A DNA stretch of 20,979 nt from positions 1 to 20,979 of IMG/VR virus record IMGVR_UViG_3300031578_000408; one strand, written 5' to 3'. The notes under the pieces were generated by a model. The model was not told where the DNA came from and did no database searches. It worked only from the letters and a program-made list of their open reading frames with translations. The stretch comes from a virus. Numbering within the stretch: the stretch's first letter is position 1; the number at the start of each line of letters is the position of its first letter. Position numbers and translations under genes: made by a program. Below are positions 1,228-16,953 of this stretch, piece after piece.

Positions 1228-1268
1228 TATATACCCCTTTGGTTACATAGTTTTCTATATTTGAGGGA

Positions 1269-1478
1269 CTATAGTGTCAAAAGAATTATAAACAAAATCG
1301 CAAAAATATGGCCTGTGTGATATGGATGTATCCGACAGGCCTCGACAAAGATATTTACATACGCATGGCCAATGTCCTTGATCCCGCGCTCTAGAGTAAG
1401 TAATCGCCTAACATGGGGCCACATTTGCTTGAAGAAATCTTTTATGTGGAGTCCGTCTTTGTCTAATTTCCAGCCCAT
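1269..1478 (-). CDS. 69-aa tail-anchored membrane protein, unknown
   Basis: The gene starts at ATG 1478 after a strong AGGGGGG ribosome binding site. The N-terminal two thirds are amphipathic and basic (KQMWPHVRRLLTLERG). The last 16 residues are strongly hydrophobic (IFAILFIILLTL at the very end), giving a single C-terminal membrane anchor. It lies just after the endolysin and a 79-aa gene in the reading direction. Small membrane proteins near an endolysin may be holins or antiholins, but a single C-terminal anchor is not the usual holin layout, so I leave the function open. Confidence 0.7.
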   Translation of the reverse strand: MGWKLDKDGLHIKDFFKQMWPHVRRLLTLERGIKDIGHAYVNIFVEACRIHPYHTGHIFAILFIILLTL

Positions 1479-2937: not shown

Positions 2938-4212
2938 TTAAGTAGCCTTCTCAATTGTCTCTATTTTAGATTGAATCGTCTCCATAATATATTCGTCCTG
3001 CGGGCTCCCAATAATTCTGTGTACTGTACAGGGAGATGTTTGCCCAATGCGTTGAATCCTGTAAATTACCTGTTTTAAGTCCCCAGGAACCCAGGGATAG
3101 TCGTTAAATATGATGTGATGTGACCTAAATAGGTCTTTTCCTTCCTTCATTGAGCCGATAGTAGCCACAAGAACGTTTCCTTGGCCCGCCTGGAATGCGT
3201 CTGCCATCGCAGACCGGGTATTTGCGGGTACTTTTCCGGTTATGGCTGTAACTCCCATAGCAGCAGCAATGGCCTCGGCAGAAGCAACGTGGTCGGTATA
3301 GATAAGCAAACAGTCCACTTCTTCGAGCAAATTGTTTGCATATTTGATCGTAAATGGGGCTTTTTTCAGTGCCGCCTCTGCTTTAGCTGTCGGATTTATG
3401 GATTTATTCCCCTCGCCCTCGAAATGTGCATTAAACTGTCCGAGCAGGGCATCGTCAGGGGTATCCGAAATTAGCAGTGATTTGTAGCTCAGTGGTGGCA
3501 GATTTAGGACATCTGAGGATTTAATTCTTATATATTTTCCCACAAGCCATTTTTTCAACTCCTTAGTATTTTTCAGGCCAGTCCACTTCATTATTGTGAC
3601 CATCCTATTGCGAACAGGAATTGAATATTCCTCTCTGTGGGAGAAATGATCGGCAAAGTCCACCTCAGAGGGAAAAAGGTCTAAAAATTTAGTGTCCGCT
3701 ACGGAAGGATTGTAGAAACATAGGGCTAAAAGGCTATAAAATTCCTGAACTCGGTTCTTTATGGGAGTTCCCGTAAGAATATGCACTCGTTTCGTGGAGT
3801 TTTCGTAGACATTTTTGTGGATGAACGTGGTGCGCTTGGCCTTCATTGATTTTATGGCATGGCCCTCGTCGAGCCCTACCATATCCGCCCACTCGAAAAG
3901 GTATTCCGCTTTTTGAACTAAGTCGTAGCTAGTTATAATGTAATCAGAATCGTCAGCCCGGCATAGTTCCTTGCCAGATCTAAACATAGTAATCTTAGCG
4001 GAGCCGTCGTCCCACTTTCGGATTTCCTTTTGCCAATTTAGAATAAGATAACTGGGGCAAACTACCAGGCATTTTATTCCCAGCCGCTTGCGTACTTCTA
4101 TAAGGCAAAGAGATTTACCAAGTCCGGGGTCAAGGGCAAGGATACTGTAGGGATTTTCAATGGCGTAGGAAATGGCCCGAGATTGATATTCCTTTATCGC
4201 GGGCCTTTCCAT
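2938..4212 (-). CDS. SNF2-type DEAD/DEAH helicase (SMARCAL1-like)
   Basis: This 424-aa protein is a superfamily 2 ATPase of the SNF2 type. Visible motifs in order: Q-like motif around residues 8-12, Walker A DPGLGKS (28-34), VVCPSYLILNWQKE (motif Ia, 50-63), Walker B variant LDEGH (114-118, the DEAH box), LTGTPIKNR (motif III, 146-154), GSMKEGKDLF (motif V, 353-362) and QVIYRIQRIGQ (motif VI, 381-391). It has no visible extra domain, so it is the bare two-lobe motor. Phages use such proteins to remodel forks or anneal strands during replication and recombination (family knowledge). The gene follows the K/E-rich gene by one base and lies in the same operon as polymerase, ssDNA-binding protein and exonuclease. 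The Gly in DEGH instead of Ala is common in this group. Confidence 0.92.
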   Translation of the reverse strand: MERPAIKEYQSRAISYAIENPYSILALDPGLGKSLCLIEVRKRLGIKCLVVCPSYLILNWQKEIRKWDDGSAKITMFRSGKELCRADDSDYIITSYDLVQKAEYLFEWADMVGLDEGHAIKSMKAKRTTFIHKNVYENSTKRVHILTGTPIKNRVQEFYSLLALCFYNPSVADTKFLDLFPSEVDFADHFSHREEYSIPVRNRMVTIMKWTGLKNTKELKKWLVGKYIRIKSSDVLNLPPLSYKSLLISDTPDDALLGQFNAHFEGEGNKSINPTAKAEAALKKAPFTIKYANNLLEEVDCLLIYTDHVASAEAIAAAMGVTAITGKVPANTRSAMADAFQAGQGNVLVATIGSMKEGKDLFRSHHIIFNDYPWVPGDLKQVIYRIQRIGQTSPCTVHRIIGSPQDEYIMETIQSKIETIEKAT

Positions 4213-5652: not shown

Positions 5653-6031
5653 CGTCCCCGTCCTCTGTTACTAGATCAACTTCAATAGAGTGTGCGTCTT
5701 TACCCGCATACTTTCCCTTTTCGATTTCGCCCATGCCGTTGTACATAACTTGAACCAACTCGCCTTCAGCTACTTTTTCCATAGCTTTGTCAAACTGGCC
5801 AGCAGAGTTTAATCCGATTATTTGGCCAATAAGTTCTTTGGATTCTTTCTTCTTGGAGAAAGATGCCTCAACAACTTCAACCATCCAATTAGGCTTATCG
5901 TAGTTATCTGTTTTACTGCCGACGTATTTACCGATTAGGTAGTCGCCTACTGCCCAGTTCTTCCACGCTCTGTAAGTACAGCGCGAGCCGGACAATTTCT
6001 TCTTTGATTTGAACACTCTCTTTGCTTCCAT
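5603..6031 (-). CDS. Probable OB-fold ssDNA-binding protein with acidic tail
   Basis: This 142-aa protein has the pattern of phage single-strand DNA-binding proteins. It contains a beta-rich core from about residue 20 (WKNWAVGDYLIGKYVG), IIGLNSAGQFDKAMEKVAEG (71-90) and VMYNGMGEIEKGKYAGKDAH (95-114). It then has a 20-residue tail of almost only Asp, Glu and Ser (122-142). Acidic tails are used by SSB-type proteins, such as T7 gp2.5, to contact polymerase and helicase and to occlude the DNA site. Its place between polymerase and exonuclease supports the role. ATG 6031 has GAGGAGGGA upstream. The tail is encoded by a GAA/GAC repeat that also encodes the Thr/Lys N-terminus of the exonuclease in another frame. 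The assignment is by pattern, not by search. Confidence 0.68.
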   Translation of the reverse strand: MEAKRVFKSKKKLSGSRCTYRAWKNWAVGDYLIGKYVGSKTDNYDKPNWMVEVVEASFSKKKESKELIGQIIGLNSAGQFDKAMEKVAEGELVQVMYNGMGEIEKGKYAGKDAHSIEVDLVTEDGDDDSDSDEYEDEDEEGL

Positions 6032-6047
6032 ATTCCCTCCTCGGGTG

Positions 6048-8096
6048 TTACAGCAAGTCCGAATCGGACCCGCTAAAATATTTTGAAAATCGGTTGTATT
6101 CTTCTAGGGCTCTTTCGTCTATGTACATATTTGAACAGGGAACTTCTAGGCGACTGCCGTCCTTCATTCCTATTTCAAACGAAGAATCCTTTTCATAATT
6201 TGGAGACCATGCAAACGGATCTAACTTAATTTTCCCCGCAGTTTTTTCATGCTTGGTGCCCAAGTAGTAAAACACGAATGCTTCCCTCATTGCGTCGTTA
6301 AGAATTGCAATATCAACTTCACAGCCCACGTCTCCCTCGATATAAATTGCATCGTGAAGTGTGAAAATAACTTTGCATCCATTTCTTACTGCAATATCTA
6401 CGGCCTTTCTCATTACCGATGCGCCGAACCCCTGTATGGGTACGTTACAAACTGACCGTAGATTTTCATTGTCGCAGAACATTCTCCAGCCACACGGGAG
6501 ATAAATTCCACATCCGTCAGTGTAGTCGTCCATAGTTTTTAGCTGCAATGCCCGTAGGTCAGGATACGCATTATAAAAAAGATCTATTTGTTCTTGGGCT
6601 TCGTCTTCAGTCCAAGTTCTTCCGGTATCGTTCGTAAGTTTTATTGCGAGCCCGTACTTGGTCATTTGGTAGCTGATTCCAAGTGTAGTGTTCTTAAATA
6701 AATCCCGGATTTCTTTGTAGTCTTCTCGTTTACCGTCTTTAGGTATAGCCCCACACAGCTTGCCCGTGTGAAGATATGGGTCTCCAGAAAGGTACGCCTC
6801 AATCATTGCTTTGTCGTCGGCCTCAATAGCCGACACGAAAAATTCTTGCTGTCCGTAATCTATTCCCGCGAGAAACTTTCCCTCGGAAGGTTGAACAAGA
6901 GCCCGCATCCACGCAGGTTTGAGGAACATAAATCCGCTAGCAGCAGGTTGTGAACGACTGCTTTGGGCTCCATAAATATTCATATAAGGACGGACTCTGC
7001 CATCAGAGCCTACGGAGTCCCAGAAGTTTTTCCTCTTGCCTCCGGTATCACTGAACCCATACAAGGATTGTTTCAGTTTCAAGTACCTAACCATTTGTGC
7101 CCCGAAGTTTCCTTCAGGATACGAGTGTTTGAACGAGTAGAATTTTTCCCATGCTTCTAGACTAAGACTTATTCCCTTTTTGTCGGTCTTCATCCATTTG
7201 TCTACGTCATGGTTTTGTCGAATCCATTCCTTAGTTGCTAATTGATTCCATGCGAATCTTGATGATCTTTTTTCCCAGCGAAATGGAAGTAGTGTCGGGA
7301 ATTGTTTGTTAATGTCACGCTGACATCCCATGAGAATATTTGGGATTTGTCGGCTAAAATTTTTTGTAGCCTCGACATTGATTGGGTATCCTCTCGACTC
7401 CATGATTGCTGTATGCGCAGAGTAGCGACCACGCAAGATAGCCTCATTAAGATAAGTCGAGTACGGAGTCTCAGCGTCAAGTTTTCTAAATTCTTCCTTA
7501 ACTCTCTCCCAAAGTTTCGGAAGGAACACGACATCCTCCATACAATACTTTGAAATATCGCGTTGCTCGACTGGAGAAAACTTATCTGGGGCGGAGATGA
7601 TAAGGTCCCGCATTTTTGTTTTTTCTTTCGTGTCACGTATAGTTTTGGTAAGTTTGTAGGTTGCTTCCGCGAGCGAATGCGTTGCTTTGAAACTTTTTTG
7701 CGCTTCCCCTTCGACTCTTTCCCACTTCGGCCTTGGCTTTTGGACATTTCGTACTCTCCCCTCTACAAGTTGGTCTCCCCACTGTAGCGCATCATTATGA
7801 TTTGTTAACATCCTGTATTCTAGGAATAGATCTACCCATCTAAACTTAAGTGGGTCAAGGCCAAGGGCCAAAAATGAACGGGCCTCTGCAACACAGGCGA
7901 ACCCTATAAAATTTTTAAATTGCTTTAGATACGTGGCTAATTTAGCCTGTCCTTCAGGGGAATTATGCAACCACCACTCGATTTTTTCATCAGCAGCTAC
8001 GTCATAGGTAGCACAGCAAACAAGGTTTACTTGGGCCTCCGTGACATCATTAAACTCGAAGTCTATATAGCAAGTGGTCTTGGTTTTGTTAGCCAT
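6048..8096 (-). CDS. polA: Family A DNA polymerase with 3'-5' exonuclease domain
   Basis: The replicative polymerase of the phage, 682 aa, lacking a 5'-3' exonuclease domain. The proofreading domain shows Exo I YIDFEFN (Asp12, Glu14), a degenerate Exo II around GFACVAEARSFLALGL (Glu71 where Asp is usual) and Exo III YCMED (Tyr184, Asp188). The polymerase domain shows motif A GIDYGQQE (Asp413), motif B RDLFKNTTLGISYQMTKYG (Arg464, Lys468, Leu472, Tyr476) and motif C LHDAIYIEG (His581, Asp582). Both metal-binding aspartates are present. Leu472 aligns with E. coli Phe762, and Ala583 replaces the usual Glu of the HDE triad. No thumb or finger truncation is seen. ATG 8096 has only a GGGTAGGG directly before it. 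A TTGACT at 8134-8129 is a possible -35 element, but no good -10 follows it. Confidence 0.95.
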   Translation of the reverse strand: MANKTKTTCYIDFEFNDVTEAQVNLVCCATYDVAADEKIEWWLHNSPEGQAKLATYLKQFKNFIGFACVAEARSFLALGLDPLKFRWVDLFLEYRMLTNHNDALQWGDQLVEGRVRNVQKPRPKWERVEGEAQKSFKATHSLAEATYKLTKTIRDTKEKTKMRDLIISAPDKFSPVEQRDISKYCMEDVVFLPKLWERVKEEFRKLDAETPYSTYLNEAILRGRYSAHTAIMESRGYPINVEATKNFSRQIPNILMGCQRDINKQFPTLLPFRWEKRSSRFAWNQLATKEWIRQNHDVDKWMKTDKKGISLSLEAWEKFYSFKHSYPEGNFGAQMVRYLKLKQSLYGFSDTGGKRKNFWDSVGSDGRVRPYMNIYGAQSSRSQPAASGFMFLKPAWMRALVQPSEGKFLAGIDYGQQEFFVSAIEADDKAMIEAYLSGDPYLHTGKLCGAIPKDGKREDYKEIRDLFKNTTLGISYQMTKYGLAIKLTNDTGRTWTEDEAQEQIDLFYNAYPDLRALQLKTMDDYTDGCGIYLPCGWRMFCDNENLRSVCNVPIQGFGASVMRKAVDIAVRNGCKVIFTLHDAIYIEGDVGCEVDIAILNDAMREAFVFYYLGTKHEKTAGKIKLDPFAWSPNYEKDSSFEIGMKDGSRLEVPCSNMYIDERALEEYNRFSKYFSGSDSDLL

Positions 8097-9187: not shown

Positions 9188-9556
9188 TTAATCAGTTAGT
9201 CTTTTTATGATGCGAGTTTTTCCTAGACCACTATCTATAGTCTCAAAAAGATCGTCAAACACACCGATGGCCTGTTTGCATTCCATACTAAGACAGTTTT
9301 TCAATAGTGTATATCGTAGGATGGTCCAGTCTTCACTTAGTAAAACGATTCCGTGCCTACGAAGTTTGTCCCATTCTTCCTTGGGGATTCTTCCTTCTTC
9401 TGCTGAAACTGTTTTTACATAGTAGCCGTCGCCACTTGCTGGCAGAGTTACGTGCGCTTTGAAGTCAGGAATTTTTACGCTTGCGCAACTTACCAAAGCT
9501 AGCAAACCTACGCAGAGCAATAATGACTTCATCGTCGATAGCTTTAATTTCTTCAT
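9188..9556 (-). CDS. Small lipoprotein, candidate outer-membrane lysis protein
   Basis: The protein starts KKLKLSTMK and has a hydrophobic segment ending in the lipobox LVSC at Cys24, so the mature form should be a lipoprotein. The second residue after Cys is Ser, with no Asp at +2, so sorting to the outer membrane is allowed. The rest (about 98 aa) is soluble with IPKEEWDKLRRHGIVLLSED and a Cys pair (KNCLSMECK). This layout recalls lipoproteins found in phage lysis cassettes. ATG 9556 has AGGGA eight bases upstream. Met9 is an alternative start that gives a tighter signal peptide. It starts 92 bases inside the upstream 125-aa membrane gene in another frame, as o-spanin genes often do inside i-spanin genes. 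It lacks the Pro-rich stretch of classic Rz1. Confidence 0.78.
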   Translation of the reverse strand: MKKLKLSTMKSLLLCVGLLALVSCASVKIPDFKAHVTLPASGDGYYVKTVSAEEGRIPKEEWDKLRRHGIVLLSEDWTILRYTLLKNCLSMECKQAIGVFDDLFETIDSGLGKTRIIKRLTD

Positions 9557-9842
9557 CGGTTAAGTCCCTGCCTTCATTGCGTATCTTTTGAATTAATTCT
9601 TCTGCGGTTTCCCAGCTTCCGTCGAAATATTTTTCGTCGGACATTGTTTCCATTCTCGCCGCTCCAATATTTAATACAATCAATCCGGCGTTTGCAAGAG
9701 TCTCACAGAAATATTTTAAGAATAGGAAGACAACTTTTCCCAGGAAACCCTGGGTTAAAAATAGTGTCGCGGGATTGGCGGCAAGACCCGCCATAATAAC
9801 AGAGGCCCCTGTCGCGCCAATTCCGCTAAACTTATGTTTCAT
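9465..9842 (-). CDS. Holin- or inner-spanin-like membrane protein
   Basis: This 125-aa protein has a Gly/Ala-rich, mildly hydrophobic N-terminus (IGATGASVIMAGLAANPATL) and a strong membrane helix at about residues 32-58. A charged helical region follows (ELIQKIRNEG, TDEEIKAIDDEV), and it ends with LRKRKNS. A basic C-terminus after one or two TM helices is typical of holins. A TM plus a charged helix followed by an overlapping lipoprotein gene is typical of the spanin pair. ATG 9842 has no good ribosome binding site but starts one base after the stop of the 66-aa gene, so it should be coupled. It is not clear which of the two roles it fills. Confidence 0.7.
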   Translation of the reverse strand: MKHKFSGIGATGASVIMAGLAANPATLFLTQGFLGKVVFLFLKYFCETLANAGLIVLNIGAARMETMSDEKYFDGSWETAEELIQKIRNEGRDLTDEEIKAIDDEVIIALRRFASFGKLRKRKNS

Positions 9843-10054: not shown

Positions 10055-10384
10055 CTAGGAATGTAGTTTTTTATCTCGCTCTAAATTGTCCACTCTTTGG
10101 CTTATTCCGTCCAGTCTTTCCCCGTGTTTTTGAAGATCTAGCCTAAGTGCGGCGGCTACGTTATTGATGGCCTCTGTAATTGCCCCGAAGTTTTTTGATA
10201 TCTCTTTCTTTACTCTGCCCGAATGAATCCATGCGGCAACGGCGAAGAAGAATCCAGCCTGGGCAATTTGACTGTTTGCTGTGGCCATTATGCCCTGTAT
10301 GACGGCCTCCGGGTCTGATACGGCGAACATTCCTAAGCCCGCGCCCCCTGCAATTCCGGCTGTCTTCTTAAAACTATTAATCAT
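10055..10384 (-). CDS. Membrane protein with coiled-coil tail, lysis-cluster candidate
   Basis: The 109-aa protein has a Gly-rich weakly hydrophobic N-terminus (AGIAGGAGLGMFAV, residues 9-22). A hydrophobic segment at about 38-53 (QIAQAGFFFAVAAWIH) is followed by basic residues (GRVKKE). A long helix with heptad-like spacing comes next (AINNVAAALRLDLQKHGERL, then DGISQRVDNLERDKK). One or two TM helices plus a coiled coil fits an inner-membrane lysis protein (i-spanin or holin), but no family was recognised. ATG 10384 has GGGGGA upstream, and this site is part of a hairpin described separately. Confidence 0.7.
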   Translation of the reverse strand: MINSFKKTAGIAGGAGLGMFAVSDPEAVIQGIMATANSQIAQAGFFFAVAAWIHSGRVKKEISKNFGAITEAINNVAAALRLDLQKHGERLDGISQRVDNLERDKKLHS

Positions 10385-10386
10385 AT

Positions 10387-10423
10387 ATCCCCCGAGAAGT
10401 ATTGATTAAACACCTAGGGGAAT
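10387..10423 (-). promoter_or_regulatory. Hairpin covering the ribosome binding site of the 109-aa membrane gene
   Basis: On the minus strand ATTCCCC (10423-10417) can pair with GGGGGAT (10393-10387) in seven pairs including one G-U. An inner GTGTT/AATAC stem with a TAATC loop stacks inside it. The downstream arm is the Shine-Dalgarno of the gene starting at 10384, so folding would block translation. A perfect TATAAT also lies at 10427-10422, but with no matching -35, and transcription from it would skip the upstream arm. Confidence 0.45.
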
Positions 10424-10442
10424 TATACGACAAGAAGGATTT

Positions 10443-11123
10443 TTAGTGGTATTTTTCCGTCTCTGACCAAGACTTAGATATTGCGTTAAAGTGCCACACC
10501 TTGTCGAAGAATCTACGGCCAAATTGGAGGTTAAAATCACGGCTTAAAAGGTCTAGTAATTTGTATTCATCCACCCCGTGTAGCTCCCCAGTAATCCATT
10601 TAACTTTCGATATGTCGGGGATGGCACTGAGTATTTCGTACTCCGCCCCCTCCACGTCTATTTTAATGAAGTCTGGAGTCCCTACTTCCTGACATATTTT
10701 GTCCATTCTTACTATGTTTACTGTCTGACTTTCAGACCCGTCCTTAATGAAATTAGAAAATCCTCCGAGGTTTGTTTCGTCAGTACTGGAATACAAAATC
10801 CGGTCTTCCGTCTTGTTGCCTAGGCCAACTTTTAGTGCCCGGATATTTTCGTACGATGCCGTGTTCTTTATGAGTAGATCGAAGTTTTCTTTTTCGGGCT
10901 CGAAGCAATGTATTTTAGCAGCAGGATAAATATTGGCCAGCAGACTAGATACCACTCCGATGTTAGCCCCGATATCAAACACAAGTTTAGGCTCGAAGTT
11001 GGGAAATAAGTATTCAGACTTGTCGATAATAACTGCTTTTATAATTGCCTCGTCACTTGTTCCTGGTCGGTAGCATATCGGAGGTCTGTCTTCAAAGGCC
11101 TCAAATTTCTTAATTGGTCTCAT
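10443..11123 (-). CDS. FkbM-family methyltransferase
   Basis: This 226-aa enzyme shows the SAM-binding and FkbM motifs. They are LVFDIGANIGVVSSLLANIY (motif I, 47-66), IHCFEPEKENFDLL (motif II, 71-84), and TPDFIKIDVEGAEYEIL (149-165), the family signature with the acidic residue and IDVEGAE. Such enzymes usually O-methylate sugars or related small groups. The length is normal for a stand-alone domain and nothing is missing. Its start overlaps the end of the GT9 gene by 14 bases, with GGAG seven bases before ATG 11123. The pair is expected to act on one pathway: glycan transfer followed by methylation of a host LPS/capsule sugar or of a phage tail glycan. Confidence 0.9.
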   Translation of the reverse strand: MRPIKKFEAFEDRPPICYRPGTSDEAIIKAVIIDKSEYLFPNFEPKLVFDIGANIGVVSSLLANIYPAAKIHCFEPEKENFDLLIKNTASYENIRALKVGLGNKTEDRILYSSTDETNLGGFSNFIKDGSESQTVNIVRMDKICQEVGTPDFIKIDVEGAEYEILSAIPDISKVKWITGELHGVDEYKLLDLLSRDFNLQFGRRFFDKVWHFNAISKSWSETEKYH

Positions 11124-12102
11124 TGTATTTCTCCATAGCCCATTGAGCCATATCTACAGGATTAGGTAGCCAAGACTCTAATATTTTTGGGTCGACAAAT
11201 TCTGCCTCTACGGATTGTTTTTTGTTTGGGCAGAAATCTATTAGGTCCCACACACCGCCGAGTCCGAAATTCTTTTCTCTCCATTGCCATTCGCCGTGAC
11301 GCCAGTGAGTAATCATATCGGGTTGCTTGCAAGTAGCAATGTACCCGATCCATGCGTCTCCGCAAGCGGCCATATGTAATGGGGCAGAGTCGTTTGTCAG
11401 AAGTACCTTAGCGTTTTTACAAAGCCAGATAGACTCGGAGATAGTTAGCTTGTTCCTTAGATCTAAACACCCGTCTGCGTTTACATCCACTGTCCCTCGA
11501 TTGTCGTCGGCGTCTGCTCCGATAAGTATTGGAGTTATTCCGCGAATTTGTAGTCCAGCTATAACCCTATCCCAAAAGGATTTCGGGAATGTCTTCGACT
11601 GCCAATGTTTCCCGGCGTGAATAAGTACGCCCCCCTTTTTAAGATTTAATTCCTTCCGAGGCTCCGGCGGAAACATTTGTATCTCTCTGTCTGAAACAGG
11701 AAGTTGTAATCGGAGCGCACACAGCGAAGGAAAATCCACACAGTTTGTAAGCATATGCGAGAAGAATTGCCACACTAAATTGGATTCGTCGGGAGGAGTT
11801 ATAGTCTCGAAGCAAAAGAATCTGCTGTACATAGGAACTTCTTCCCGAAGATCATACACCCGTTTAAATTTTAAGTGTGAAAATAGCTCCGGTATTTCAC
11901 TGGCTATGCTTATCTCACAGTCCTTGAACATCTTCAGCGCATATCTGAGGGTGGGCTCTGCGCATATCTGATCGCCTATCCCGCCCCAGGTTTTGAATAA
12001 AAGTTTGCGCTCTACCCCGGCATCAATAGCAATCTGTGTTCGGAATATGGGCAAATGGGTAACAGGCAAGGCTACCCGCTTAGTGGTGTCTATCTTTTCC
12101 AT
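11110..12102 (-). CDS. Glycosyltransferase family 9 (heptosyltransferase-like)
   Basis: This 330-aa protein has the GT9 layout. The N-terminal lobe carries FKTWGGIGDQICAEPTLRYA (36-55, the GxGD loop). The C-terminal lobe carries VLIHAGKHWQSKTFPKSFWD (159-178), PILIGADADD (191-200) and VLLTNDSAPLHMAA (233-246), the nucleotide-sugar binding NDS-P-HMAAA loop. GT9 enzymes such as WaaC/WaaF transfer heptose onto lipid A-core oligosaccharide, but donor and acceptor cannot be told here. ATG 12102 is preceded by GGGGAG, which lies in a hairpin. It is flanked by tail fibre and FkbM genes, so the target may be host surface glycan (serotype conversion, blocking reinfection) or the fibres themselves. Confidence 0.88.
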   Translation of the reverse strand: MEKIDTTKRVALPVTHLPIFRTQIAIDAGVERKLLFKTWGGIGDQICAEPTLRYALKMFKDCEISIASEIPELFSHLKFKRVYDLREEVPMYSRFFCFETITPPDESNLVWQFFSHMLTNCVDFPSLCALRLQLPVSDREIQMFPPEPRKELNLKKGGVLIHAGKHWQSKTFPKSFWDRVIAGLQIRGITPILIGADADDNRGTVDVNADGCLDLRNKLTISESIWLCKNAKVLLTNDSAPLHMAACGDAWIGYIATCKQPDMITHWRHGEWQWREKNFGLGGVWDLIDFCPNKKQSVEAEFVDPKILESWLPNPVDMAQWAMEKYNETN

Positions 12103-12105
12103 TGG

Positions 12106-12158
12106 TTTACTCCCCGTAGTGTTGAGACCTAATTATCTCATAAACATAGGGGAGTAAA
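12106..12158 (-). promoter_or_regulatory. Hairpin sequestering the ribosome binding site of the GT9 gene
   Basis: TTTACTCCCC (12106-12115) and GGGGAGTAAA (12149-12158) are a perfect 10-bp inverted repeat. Inside it TGAGA (12123-12127) pairs with TCTCA (12136-12140) around an 8-base loop. On the minus-strand RNA the downstream arm contains GGGGAG, the Shine-Dalgarno seven bases before ATG 12102. The fold would hide the site between the late fibre gene and the glycosyltransferase. No T-run follows, so it is not a standard terminator. Confidence 0.65.
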
Positions 12159-12166
12159 GGCATTGT

Positions 12167-14566
12167 TTACGTAAAATATTCCAATTCTACTTTATATACG
12201 TTCTTGCCTATTGGACTGTTTCCAAAGAAGGCCAGTCCGTCTCCAAGAGAAATTGTATAAGAATTGCCCGCTGTAACTGGGATGTCCAGAGAGGTAATAA
12301 ATTCCCTTCCGTCCGGAGCAAATCCGCCAAGAACTGCAACTGGGGATGATCTTGGAGCCACGTCTCCGACGCCCAAAGTTCCGTTTGTATTATTTCCCCA
12401 TGCGTAGAGCCCTCCATTAGTTGCTATTCCGAATACTGAATATACATCATTGGCACTGTCCGCAAAAAAGATATCCGCAAACTTAAATCCGCCAAGAACG
12501 GCAACAGGAGAAGATCTGGAAACTATATCCCCAAGTCCAAGCTGTCCGTTCGCGTTTATTCCCCATGCGTACGCCGTGCCATCATTGGTAAGTCCTATGG
12601 ACATACTTCTGAATGTTTTAACATCCTTAAATTCTAGTCCGCCAAGAACTGCGACAGGAGAAGACGCTGCACTTGTACTTCCTATTCCTAAAGCCCCTTG
12701 CGTATTGTCTCCCCACGCATATAGAGATCCGCCAGAAACTATGCCGAATATTGATTCACTCTTAGGGCATTTTATTAGTCTCTCGAATGTTAGTCCGCCG
12801 ATAACTGCAACTGGAGAAGACTTAGCAACAACGTCTCCGTGTCCAAGTTGTCCAGACGAGTTATCTCCCCACGAATAGGCGTTGCCAGAATTGTCCAGTG
12901 CTGTGAATGAATATCTGCTAGACACTGCTCCGCCAACTATTTGTTTAATTTGCAATCCGCCAAGAACCGCAACGGGAGAAGACTTTGCAGCTACCGTTCC
13001 GTCGCCCAGTTGTCCATTTACATTATTCCCCCAAGAATATGCCAGACCTCCGGGAGTTACAGCCACTACAGATCCGTTTGCAGCAGACCCAGAAATGAAT
13101 GACATCGTGCTAAATGACAGTCCTCCGAGTACCGCAACAGGGGAAGATCGAGGGACAACGTTTCCTACTCCAAGTTGCCCGTTCGTATTTACGCCCCAGG
13201 CATACGCGGAGTTATCAGAAGATATTCCAAGTACCGAAGTGTCCCTTGGATATATGTCCATAAATTTAATTCCGCCAAGAATTGCAACTGGAGAAGACTT
13301 TGCCGCTACCGTTCCGACGCCAAGCTGTCCGTTACCGTTCACTCCCCAGGAATAAACAGATCCGTTAGCTGCAATTCCGTAGCTATTCATAACAGTGGCG
13401 GACACGGTAGTTCCGTAAATTTTGTTGAATGCAAGACCACCAAGAACCGCAACAGGCGAAGACTTGGCTACTATAGATGCGTCGCCAATCTGCCCATTCG
13501 TATTTAATCCCCATGAATACGCATTGCCGAATACGTCAACCATCCCAGTTTTTTCTTTAGATACACCGACAATTCCCCTATAGGAATGCACTTTTACAGA
13601 GGATACTCCTACCGGAGCGGTCCAAGATTTATTAAGAATATACAGTGTTTCAGAAGTAGCTCCGGCAACTCTGTCGGCGGTGGAAAGAGCCTTCCACCTA
13701 GAGTCTGTCGTGCAATAAAACAATGTCATAGAACTTTCTGGCTTCAAGGAGTAGTCCGCCGCTGAAGGAAGTATAATTCTCTCAGTAGCAGCAGCGCCAG
13801 TGTCTTGATGTTTTATCGTTACATACGCAGTAGATCTATTGTGAATTGTGACTACCTTACTGTCGTGAGATATATTTATCCCCTGAATATCGGTCGCAGT
13901 AGACCCAGTCATTTCCACTACTACTTTAGTGGCCGATAGCTGCGCAATGGTAGCAGTGGTAGCAACGTTCTGTCCCACTAATATCTGGGAATTTAATTTG
14001 TGGGGAACTATTGTTTCAACTTCTCCACCAACAAATTTCATATGTTCTGTCAAAGTTGCACTTCCGTCTGGAGTGGACCAGAATGAAAGTTCTCCCCCGT
14101 AGGCACTGGATGTTTGGTCGTCGGTAGCATTCCAAATAATTTTAGCAACTACTGGATTTCCGGATGAATCTGTTCTTCCAACTACTCGTATCTCTCCGAC
14201 TACGTCTCCGTCCAAAACTTGGCCGTTGGTAGCTATTCGTCTTTTTACTAATTCCATTACAGCGCCAACTGCATCCGCGCTTATTTTCTTTACTTGGAAT
14301 GAATCAGTAGCAAGAGAAACAGAAGCCAGTCCAGTTGTTAGATTTATCTGGAATATCTCTACGTCAGTAGTTCCAGTCCAAATCTTGAAGGACCAAGAGG
14401 TAGGGTCATTTGTCATATCGACCCACGATCCCCCTATGTCTGTCTCTGTTGGGCGGGAGGTTCCACTGCATCCAGACATTAACGCATCTTTAAAATCGTT
14501 TAGTGTTGTTGCCAATGTTGTCCCGCTTATGGTCGGGTCGATTGTGCTAAAAATTGTCTGACTCAT
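12167..14566 (-). CDS. Tail fibre / receptor-binding protein with eight RCC1-like repeats (copy 1)
   Basis: This 799-aa protein begins with a segment common to phage fibres (LNDFKDALMSGCSGTSRPTE, residues 22-41, then GGSWVDMTND). A beta-rich shaft follows, ending SKSWTAPVGVS-type 'LYILNKSWTAPVGVSSVKVH' at about 310-330. Residues about 347-748 hold eight repeats of 50-55 aa with core 'aYsWG.N.nGqLG.GdvvakSSPVAVLGGl.F', the RCC1 (regulator of chromosome condensation) signature that folds into a beta-propeller. The last 45 residues (FITSLDIPVTAGNSYTISLG) resemble the closing domain of Gly-rich fibre tips. ATG 14566 has AGGAG five bases upstream. It is a paralogue of the upstream fibre gene, separated by 8 bases. 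The propeller is likely the surface-binding tip. Confidence 0.85.
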   Translation of the reverse strand: MSQTIFSTIDPTISGTTLATTLNDFKDALMSGCSGTSRPTETDIGGSWVDMTNDPTSWSFKIWTGTTDVEIFQINLTTGLASVSLATDSFQVKKISADAVGAVMELVKRRIATNGQVLDGDVVGEIRVVGRTDSSGNPVVAKIIWNATDDQTSSAYGGELSFWSTPDGSATLTEHMKFVGGEVETIVPHKLNSQILVGQNVATTATIAQLSATKVVVEMTGSTATDIQGINISHDSKVVTIHNRSTAYVTIKHQDTGAAATERIILPSAADYSLKPESSMTLFYCTTDSRWKALSTADRVAGATSETLYILNKSWTAPVGVSSVKVHSYRGIVGVSKEKTGMVDVFGNAYSWGLNTNGQIGDASIVAKSSPVAVLGGLAFNKIYGTTVSATVMNSYGIAANGSVYSWGVNGNGQLGVGTVAAKSSPVAILGGIKFMDIYPRDTSVLGISSDNSAYAWGVNTNGQLGVGNVVPRSSPVAVLGGLSFSTMSFISGSAANGSVVAVTPGGLAYSWGNNVNGQLGDGTVAAKSSPVAVLGGLQIKQIVGGAVSSRYSFTALDNSGNAYSWGDNSSGQLGHGDVVAKSSPVAVIGGLTFERLIKCPKSESIFGIVSGGSLYAWGDNTQGALGIGSTSAASSPVAVLGGLEFKDVKTFRSMSIGLTNDGTAYAWGINANGQLGLGDIVSRSSPVAVLGGFKFADIFFADSANDVYSVFGIATNGGLYAWGNNTNGTLGVGDVAPRSSPVAVLGGFAPDGREFITSLDIPVTAGNSYTISLGDGLAFFGNSPIGKNVYKVELEYFT
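12322..13526 (-). repeat. RCC1-like repeat tract of fibre copy 1 (8 units)
   Basis: Eight units spaced 150-165 bp share a DNA core of about 25 bp, e.g. CCAAGAACNGCAACNGGAGA on the plus strand, encoding SSPVAVLGG. Cores start near 12327, 12492, 12642, 12798, 12960, 13125, 13275 and 13440. Third-codon positions differ between units, so they are old duplications rather than recent ones. Confidence 0.85.
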
Positions 14567-14574
14567 TTTATCTC

Positions 14575-16953
14575 CTACGCCTCGTATGCTATTGTTATAT
14601 AGTCCAAATCATAATCCATAATTGTCGTCCCAAAACTACTTACTAATTTAGAAAGATGTATTGGGTATGACACTCCTTCTTCTACTCTTACAACGTAACT
14701 ATTTATAACTGTTCTGTGGTCTCCGGACACCCCGGAAATAACGGCAACAGGAGAAGACCTATTAGTTAAGTCCCCTACGCCAAGTTCTCCGCTATTATTT
14801 ACTCCCCAGGAATAATATTTTCCGTCGGTACACATTCCGTATGTTTGTTGGGAAGATGCAAAAACATTGGTAAATTTTAATCCCCCCAGAACAGCAACCG
14901 GGGAAGATTTCGCAAGCTGATCTCCTGTGCCTAAGTTATAGTTGTTATTAATTCCCCATGCGTACAGGGTTCCGTCAGCAGTAAGAGCAAATACAGAAGA
15001 TGAGCTTCCGCTGAAAAATTCTTTGAATAATAATCCGCCAACGACAAGAACTGGAGAAGACCTTGGTGTTATGTCACCCACTCCTAGTTGCCCGGCTTGG
15101 TTTCTTCCCCAGGAATATAGCTCTCCATTTTCCTTTAGTCCGTAGAAAGCTTCCCCTCCGGCACTGTAGATATCTTTAAATGTGTGCCCACCTATCACTA
15201 GAACGGGAGAAGATCTGTCGACATCGTCTCCAACTCCAAGTTGTCCAATATAATTTCTGCCCCAGGAGTACACATCCCCATCGTCAGTAATTCCGGCAAT
15301 CGACCCAGAATTTCCCGATGTAGTTATTTTTCTAAATGAAAGTCCTCCAAGAACGGCCACTGGGGAAGACCTGTCTGTCAGATCTCCGACCCCTAGTTGC
15401 CCGTAACTGTTATATCCCCATCCGTACAATGCCCCATTATCTCTTATTGCGAATGTGGAATAGGCTCCTGGGGCCCGGAAAATATAATCAAATCTAAATC
15501 CCCCCAATACTAACACTGGGGAAGACCTTGAAATAACATCCCCCAGACCTAGGTTTCCTCTAAAATTTAGTCCCCATCCGTATGCTGATCCGGATGTGTC
15601 CAACCCAAGAGTTTCAAAACCCCCATGCTCTACCGATACAAACTTAAGGCCGCCAAGGACTGCCACTGGAGAAGACTTGCTAAGAATTGAATCTCCTCCT
15701 CCCCCATTGCCGTATTGGTTGTTTCCCCATAAATACGCAGAACCATTTTTTGTTATCACTCCCCTTGTGTACGGAATAGAGTCGTCTCCATACATAACTC
15801 TTTGAGGGAGGGCGGACAGTCCGCCAATAACTAATACCGGAGAAGATTTTTCAACTAAAGTTCCGTCTCCAATTTGCCCACCGAAGTTATCTCCCCATCC
15901 AAATATGTTTCCATAAGAATCTACTAGGGAAGTATAATGAAATAGTGTTTTCCTGTGCGCCGTTATTTTAACAAGCCCAGTTATTGGAGAAACCCAAGTT
16001 GAATTTCTTTGATATATTGTTTCAAAAATGCCGTCTATGTTCTGCCCAAGAACTGTAGATCTTATTTTCCACCTAGAGTCTGTCGTTGAGTATTGTAATA
16101 TTGCGGTAGATTCGGGAATGATTATGTAGTCTTCTCCGGACGGAAGTTTTAATCTATCAGAGGCCGCTGCTCCCGCATCTTGATTTTTTAAGGTTACTTC
16201 CGCAGTAGATCTATTATGGATTATAAGTACTTTTGATTCCCCGGCAGAATCTATTCCATAGATATCCGTTGCTGTAGATCCCGTCATTTCCGCCAATATT
16301 TTAGTGGCGGAAAGTTGCGCTATGCTGGCTGTAGTTGCCACGTTCTGGCTTGCCAGTACTTGCGAATTTAATTTGTGGGGAGCTATTGTTTCAACAAGCC
16401 CGTCTATAAATCTTATATGCTCGGATAGTGATGCGTCTCCGTCGGGAGTCGAGTACATAGAAAATGTTCCGCCGCTAGCCGAAGACGTCATATCGTCAGT
16501 TGAAGTGAATCTTAGTATTGCTGAAACTGGATTTGTGGAAGTGTCTGTTCTTCCAGTAAATTTTAATTCGGCTAAAACATCTCCGCTAAGTACCTGTCCA
16601 TTGTTTGAGATCCTGTTCTTAATTAATTCTAAAATAGGTCCGACGGTATCCGCCGAATATCTTTGCACAGAAAACGTATCGTCAGCGTTTAGTACTCCGC
16701 CAAAATTGCTTAATATGGAAACTCGAAATACTTCAATATCAACTGTGCCGTCGAATATTTTGAAGGCCCAATAATAATCTGGGGCGGTCTGGTTTGTTGT
16801 GTCTATCCACATCCCGCCAGCCTGTAAACTTGTTGGCCTGGAAGTTCCAGAACACCCAGACATAAGGGCATCTTTAAAATCGTCCAACAATGCCGATAGC
16901 ATTAATCCGGAAGTTGTTAGCGGATTTATCGACGACCAAATTTCTTGACTCAT
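14575..16953 (-). CDS. Tail fibre / receptor-binding protein with eight RCC1-like repeats (copy 2)
   Basis: A 792-aa paralogue of the downstream fibre. The first 330 residues align well by eye (DDFKDALMSGCSGTSRPT, then LNSQVLASQNVATTASIAQL in both with few changes), ending with ETIYQRNSTWVSPITGLVKI. Residues about 348-743 again hold eight RCC1-like units with the YSWG, GQLGVGD and RSSPVLVLGG cores, but the repeats have diverged more and use RSSPVLV/SSPVAV mixtures. The C-terminus (VVRVEEGVSYPIHLSKLVSS) is different from copy 1. ATG 16953 has AGGGG upstream. Two fibres with a common base and different tips suggest two receptor specificities, or a hetero-oligomeric fibre. Confidence 0.85.
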   Translation of the reverse strand: MSQEIWSSINPLTTSGLMLSALLDDFKDALMSGCSGTSRPTSLQAGGMWIDTTNQTAPDYYWAFKIFDGTVDIEVFRVSILSNFGGVLNADDTFSVQRYSADTVGPILELIKNRISNNGQVLSGDVLAELKFTGRTDTSTNPVSAILRFTSTDDMTSSASGGTFSMYSTPDGDASLSEHIRFIDGLVETIAPHKLNSQVLASQNVATTASIAQLSATKILAEMTGSTATDIYGIDSAGESKVLIIHNRSTAEVTLKNQDAGAAASDRLKLPSGEDYIIIPESTAILQYSTTDSRWKIRSTVLGQNIDGIFETIYQRNSTWVSPITGLVKITAHRKTLFHYTSLVDSYGNIFGWGDNFGGQIGDGTLVEKSSPVLVIGGLSALPQRVMYGDDSIPYTRGVITKNGSAYLWGNNQYGNGGGGDSILSKSSPVAVLGGLKFVSVEHGGFETLGLDTSGSAYGWGLNFRGNLGLGDVISRSSPVLVLGGFRFDYIFRAPGAYSTFAIRDNGALYGWGYNSYGQLGVGDLTDRSSPVAVLGGLSFRKITTSGNSGSIAGITDDGDVYSWGRNYIGQLGVGDDVDRSSPVLVIGGHTFKDIYSAGGEAFYGLKENGELYSWGRNQAGQLGVGDITPRSSPVLVVGGLLFKEFFSGSSSSVFALTADGTLYAWGINNNYNLGTGDQLAKSSPVAVLGGLKFTNVFASSQQTYGMCTDGKYYSWGVNNSGELGVGDLTNRSSPVAVISGVSGDHRTVINSYVVRVEEGVSYPIHLSKLVSSFGTTIMDYDLDYITIAYEA
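14724..15911 (-). repeat. RCC1-like repeat tract of fibre copy 2 (8 units)
   Basis: Eight repeats of 49-57 aa with the same core as in copy 1. One unit reads QYGNGGGGDSILSKSSPVAV, with an extra residue and a Gly run where GQLGVGD is expected, and the last unit ends VISGVSG instead of VLGG. Cores occur near 14736, 14885, 15035, 15194, 15350, 15500, 15650 and 15830. Confidence 0.82.

Follow-up and report, generated by a model that had tools for sequence, protein, structure and literature searches.

The window, that is the whole stretch of DNA analysed here, is a 20,979-base virus record in which nearly all genes lie on the minus strand. Its genes encode a tail protein, two RCC1-repeat fibre-like proteins, a glycosyltransferase of family 9 (GT9), an FkbM methyltransferase, several small membrane or lipoprotein-like proteins, a DNA polymerase A and, as judged by eye, a helicase-like protein. 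The two fibre-like genes form a tandem pair (12167-16953, minus strand) with a common N-terminal part; both are matched by Pfam RCC1 and they resemble each other at the DNA level. The gene at 12167-14566 (minus strand) encodes an RCC1-repeat tail-fibre-like protein of 799 aa and ends with a stop codon at 12169-12167. Downstream of it lies the GT9 gene (11110-12102, minus strand), coding for a predicted enzyme that is placed in the family by Pfam PF01075 (43.3 bits, curated cut-off 22). The end of the GT9 gene is overlapped by the FkbM-type methyltransferase gene (10443-11123, minus strand), whose own start lies outside any hairpin. At 9188-9842 (minus strand), a gene for a TM protein and a lipoprotein-like gene (lipobox LVSC) overlap by 92 nt and look, by eye only, like a lysis or spanin-type pair.

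The fibre and GT9 genes are separated by 64 nt that read, in minus-strand order and up to the GT9 start, acaaugcc UUUACUCCCC UAUGUUUAUGAGAUAAUUAGGUCUCAACACUAC GGGGAGUAAA cca AUG. The bases at 12106-12115 (TTTACTCCCC) are complementary to those at 12149-12158 (GGGGAGTAAA) at 10/10 positions, with a spacing of 33 nt. The 5' arm of the resulting hairpin, UUUACUCCCC (12149-12158, minus strand), starts 8 nt 3' of the fibre stop codon, and neither arm is part of the fibre reading frame. The 3' arm, GGGGAGUAAA (12106-12115, minus strand), includes the entire GT9 Shine-Dalgarno (SD) sequence GGGGAG (12110-12115), 7 nt 5' of the GT9 ATG (12102-12100). Between the arms, UGAGAU (12140-12135) and GUCUCA (12128-12123) fold into an inner stem of 6 bp with a 6-nt loop (12123-12140, minus strand). 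All statements on RNA made here are computed. The 53-nt minus-strand RNA folds at -21.9 kcal/mol, compared to a mean of -9.4 for dinucleotide shuffles (z -4.5, 0/200 as good), and in a context of 121 nt the z-score is -2.3. In the whole window, this is the sole perfect inverted repeat of at least 9 nt (within 60 nt) with arms more than 10 nt apart. The hairpin is thus confirmed as a real feature of the sequence, and the first-pass annotation, which had proposed structure prediction as a check, was correct on the arms, their coordinates and the SD sequence.

The hairpin does not have the make-up of an intrinsic terminator, a GC-rich stem followed by a U-tract: the minus strand runs on with CCAAUGG and no terminator was predicted in the gap by the scan. 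A search with Rfam riboswitch, leader and thermometer families gave no match in the window at the gathering score. A derivation of the ribosome-binding site (RBS) from an RCC1 repeat was also considered, GGGGAGTAAAC encoding W-G-V-N as well, and was rejected, the local alignment being no better than that of shuffles (fraction 0.255).

The opening cost of a start was defined as the energy needed to open positions -14 to +3 around the start codon. For GT9, it amounted to 15.7 kcal/mol (about 16-17 overall and 17.5 in read-through RNA), and the other genes of the window required 2-10 kcal/mol, except those starting at 10384 (16.9) and 1227 (15.9). When shuffling was limited to the part of the gap upstream of -16, with the SD sequence, the start and the coding region left unchanged, the sequestration had a p of 0.007 (150 shuffles) or 0.02 (100 shuffles); therefore, it goes beyond chance, but only to a moderate extent, given that the feature had been picked by eye in 21 kb. 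The gene starting at 10384 (ORF 10055-10384) encodes 109 aa with one likely TM segment in the neighbourhood of the lysis region, and a search for its relatives found none. It is preceded by a second RBS-occluding hairpin, UAUAAUUCCCC...GGGGGAUAUAUG (10385-10442, minus strand), with a TATAAT within the 5' arm, an opening cost of about 13-20 kcal/mol depending on the context and a gap-shuffle p of 0.007-0.01. The cost of 15.9 kcal/mol at the start of ORF 799-1227 (gap 1228-1280, minus strand) was obtained with the end of the preceding gene included; in RNA from the stop codon on, it was 5.7 kcal/mol (p 0.56).

Relatives of GT9 were taken from IMG/VR and GTDB genomes, and two further profile searches returned almost only the same contigs; a tblastn search of GT9 against 50,697 annotated phage records gave no match. 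In the closer relatives, GT9 lies directly 3' of a fibre gene with a similar C-terminus, and the order fibre-then-GT9 is conserved across many uncultured phage contigs (L009-L023, L030-L046 and the window, 11110-14566). Contigs related through the phage's own DNA polymerase (L099-L104) had no GT9 in the part that was inspected, which suggests that the fibre-GT9 pair travels independently of the core genome; the pair may represent a mobile receptor module equipped with a sugar transferase.

Two styles of junction were found. In most relatives, GT9 overlaps the fibre stop or follows it after a short gap, without a hairpin (for example L009, L010, L011, L019, L022, L023, L032, L034, L040, L058 and L059); stop-start overlaps (ATGA) are present in L009, L010, L019, L022 and L023, among others, and leave no room for such a hairpin. 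In L019, a strong terminator-like hairpin with a T6 tail (5991-6067) follows immediately after GT9. In relatives with gaps of at least 36 nt, the gap usually pairs with the SD sequence or the start codon; the sequences are unrelated, and sometimes GT9 codons take part. A 14-bp stem covers the SD sequence in L017, a 13-bp stem covers GGGGG in L018 and an 11-bp stem includes the AUG in L039. The stem takes in the AUG in L043 as well, where pairing is weaker, as it is in L016 and L041; it is small in L030 and weak in L044. In L015 and L091, positions -9 to -1 pair with the gene's own GT9 codons, and synonymous recoding lowers the structure (p 0.003 and 0.027). In L047, a textbook intrinsic terminator, AAGGGGAGGGAGGCGCAGACCTCCTTCCCTTTTTT (3824-3887), lies between a fibre-like gene and GT9. 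The first-pass annotation had stated that GT9 relatives without pairing arms would refute a switch; many such relatives exist among the stop/start overlaps, but most of those with gaps of at least 36 nt have a non-homologous structure of their own. Because so many relatives are without pairing arms, the comparison of contigs indicates that the hairpin is not an obligate part of GT9.

The sequence of the hairpin is not conserved among the relatives. The exact hairpin of the window was not found in other viral contigs, and a search for its arms with a variable loop gave three matches, unrelated to GT9 and at about chance level by our own estimate. No close relative of the window was found, so that compensatory changes could not be counted for its own stem; among L039, L041, L043 and L044, L044 was not alignable and the sequences were too few to count changes.

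For the recurrence of the structure, 12 fibre-GT9 junctions with gaps of at least 36 nt, the window included, were compared to 48 other gaps of 36-110 nt from the same contigs. Each junction was tested against two nulls, in which either the gap was shuffled or codons 2-10 were recoded synonymously, and twice the smaller p was taken; the final test was run with 100 shuffles. With starts checked by hand (GT9 starts were hand-picked with the help of homology, control starts were automatic) and a 36-nt limit set after inspection of the data, pairing of the ribosome site was stronger in the 12 fibre-GT9 gaps than in the controls (Mann-Whitney p 2.8e-4), and the median opening cost was 12.1 versus 8.3 kcal/mol (p 0.006). 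L045, L046 and L049 had been left out, since their gaps shrink to 31 nt or less when better starts are chosen. Without L041 and L043, near-duplicates of L039, and without L047 with its terminator, p was 0.0011. In this reduced set, a combined p of 0.1 or less was reached by 7/9 junctions and 8/48 controls (Fisher 6e-4), and a p of 0.05 by 4/9 and 5/48 (Fisher 0.027). Of the 12 junctions, L030, L041, L043 and L091 individually miss a combined p of 0.1. An earlier, cruder comparison of all gaps of 25-110 nt with 61 controls gave a p of 0.10 for the opening cost. The gap before the gene at 10384 of the window ranks among the strongest controls and, therefore, the device is not confined to GT9.

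These data are best accommodated by a model that we consider rather probable, in which an autonomous intercistronic hairpin occludes the RBS and throttles translation of GT9 on the polycistronic fibre mRNA. RNA that reads through from the fibre gene would have its SD sequence paired and the GT9 start closed. Because both arms lie 3' of the fibre stop, translation of the fibre gene would pass through neither of them, and a ribosome at the stop codon would cover no more than about 2 bp of the stem. The fibre stop and the GT9 start neither overlap nor lie less than about 20 nt apart and, because reinitiation becomes almost nil once a gap reaches about 20 nt (PMC10666635), the gap of 64 nt should not be coupled by reinitiation. 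A structure of such kind lowered T4 lysozyme synthesis 100-fold (PMC3014915), and the output of GT9 in cells would likewise be strongly cut relative to that of the fibre. Overlapping relatives could couple GT9 to the fibre by stop-start reinitiation; in gapped ones, weak independent initiation would presumably take its place, uncouple GT9 and hold its output down. GT9 might be switched on by an internal start, an RNase cut, temperature or a factor. Against the throttle, most GT9 relatives are without any hairpin, so GT9 can do without one, and the p of 0.10 in the cruder comparison speaks against it as well.

We think it unlikely that the hairpin is a switch like that of T4 gene e, as the first-pass annotation had proposed, in which GT9 is not translated from transcripts that read through from the fibre gene but from a second one that begins between the two arms. 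Its silent half agrees with the folding: in RNA from 12300, 12240 or 12166, the unpaired probability of GGGGAG is about 0, that is, its pairing probability is near 1. As to the active half, folding predicts that the shortened RNA would be open: in RNA starting at 12148-12120 the opening cost drops from 17.5 to 3.5-4.9 kcal/mol, and a start inside the 5' arm leaves the SD sequence mostly open at 4/6 bases, two bases staying partly paired. For the start, only a weak -10-like match was found, the candidate internal promoter TGA-GATAAT in the inner stem-loop (12132-12140, minus strand; shuffle p 0.05). The promoter scan, which covers sigma-70 sites and not phage-specific promoters of other kinds, found no -35 match 16-18 nt from it and listed no sigma-70 site here, and the hairpins of nine relatives contain no comparable -10 signal. 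The precedent invoked does exist, since T4 e, soc, 49 and I-TevI operate in this way, but the 5' strand retains the late promoter across related T4-type phages (PMC3014915), unlike in the relatives here. Besides, fibre and GT9 are both expected late, and a separation of early and late expression is not obvious. Coupling by unfolding, in which ribosomes that finish the fibre gene melt the base of the hairpin so that GT9 is made only along with the fibre, is in our view quite improbable. The distance from the stop to the 5' arm is 8 nt in the window and in L017 and 6 nt in L018, and masking of 12 or 14 nt past the stop reduces the opening cost to 11.8 or 7.8 kcal/mol; however, a ribosome usually reaches about 10 nt past the stop, at which 15.0 kcal/mol remain, the fibre frame contains neither arm and the stem covering the start is far from the stop in L015, L091, L039 and L043. 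Other relatives can couple by overlap, and E. coli rpmI-rplT couples across a gap of 52 nt, but structure just 3' of the stop lowered coupling in a library screen (PMC12548453).

The hairpin could also serve the fibre mRNA, as an RNase III site or a barrier to exonucleases at its 3' end, and overlap the GT9 RBS merely as a result of the short gap. The stems of the window and of L017 have about 18-21 bp, which is near the size of RNase III substrates, and the terminator of L047 demonstrates that fibre 3'-end signals occur in this gap. We nevertheless regard such a role as very improbable: the 3' arm in L015 and L091 is GT9 coding sequence and the stem in L039 and L043 includes the AUG, neither of which is needed by a fibre 3'-end element, and the hairpin of the window has neither a U-tract nor an entry in the terminator scan. 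Just as doubtful is plain chance, by which a GC-poor gap happens to complement its own SD sequence. The choice by eye in 21 kb, the gap-shuffle p of merely 0.007-0.02 and the strong hairpins in some control gaps would allow for it, but non-homologous structures recur at the same junction, synonymous codons are biased in L015 and L091 and nearly all other starts of the window have a low opening cost.

Beyond the throttle itself, we tentatively suggest, as an idea that is rather unlikely to hold in full, that the mobile fibre-GT9 module carries a repeatedly re-invented translational valve, either an overlap (coupled) or a gap in which a hairpin, whatever its sequence, covers the GT9 start (uncoupled); selection would act on how much GT9 is made relative to the fibre, or when, rather than on a particular RNA sequence, and the same device would guard the gene at 10055-10384. 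The fibre-GT9 pair appears to travel between phages, and selection on the relative output of its genes, which seems to take place, may bear on the role of the glycosyltransferase, modification of the fibre or of the host surface. These metagenome-only phages offer an example of structures that hide an RBS and come up repeatedly at one gene junction while their sequences differ; such structures are invisible to sequence-profile searches.

Intercistronic hairpins that hide an RBS are a known phage device (T4 gene e); what is new, judging from the contigs compared, is its occurrence at a mobile fibre-GT9 junction, where it recurs although its sequence is not conserved. As in T4 e, soc, 49 and I-TevI, an intercistronic stem hides the SD sequence and/or the AUG of the downstream gene (PMC3014915) and, as in T4 e, RNA without the 5' strand would be open, here by computation. 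Unlike in T4 e, where late promoters give transcripts without the 5' strand and the inhibition was measured (PMC3014915), the fold here is computed and no convincing promoter is present, and the relatives do not share a promoter within or immediately before the 5' strand. In f1 VII/IX, MS2 coat/lysis and E. coli rpmI-rplT, a structure also closes the downstream RBS in a polycistronic mRNA, but upstream ribosomes reach part of it there (PMC12548453), whereas here the fibre stop precedes both arms. Termination-reinitiation at stop-start overlaps (ATGA) is the arrangement of the same fibre-GT9 junction in many relatives; unlike these, the window has a hairpin-filled gap of 64 nt that lies beyond the reach of reinitiation (PMC10666635).
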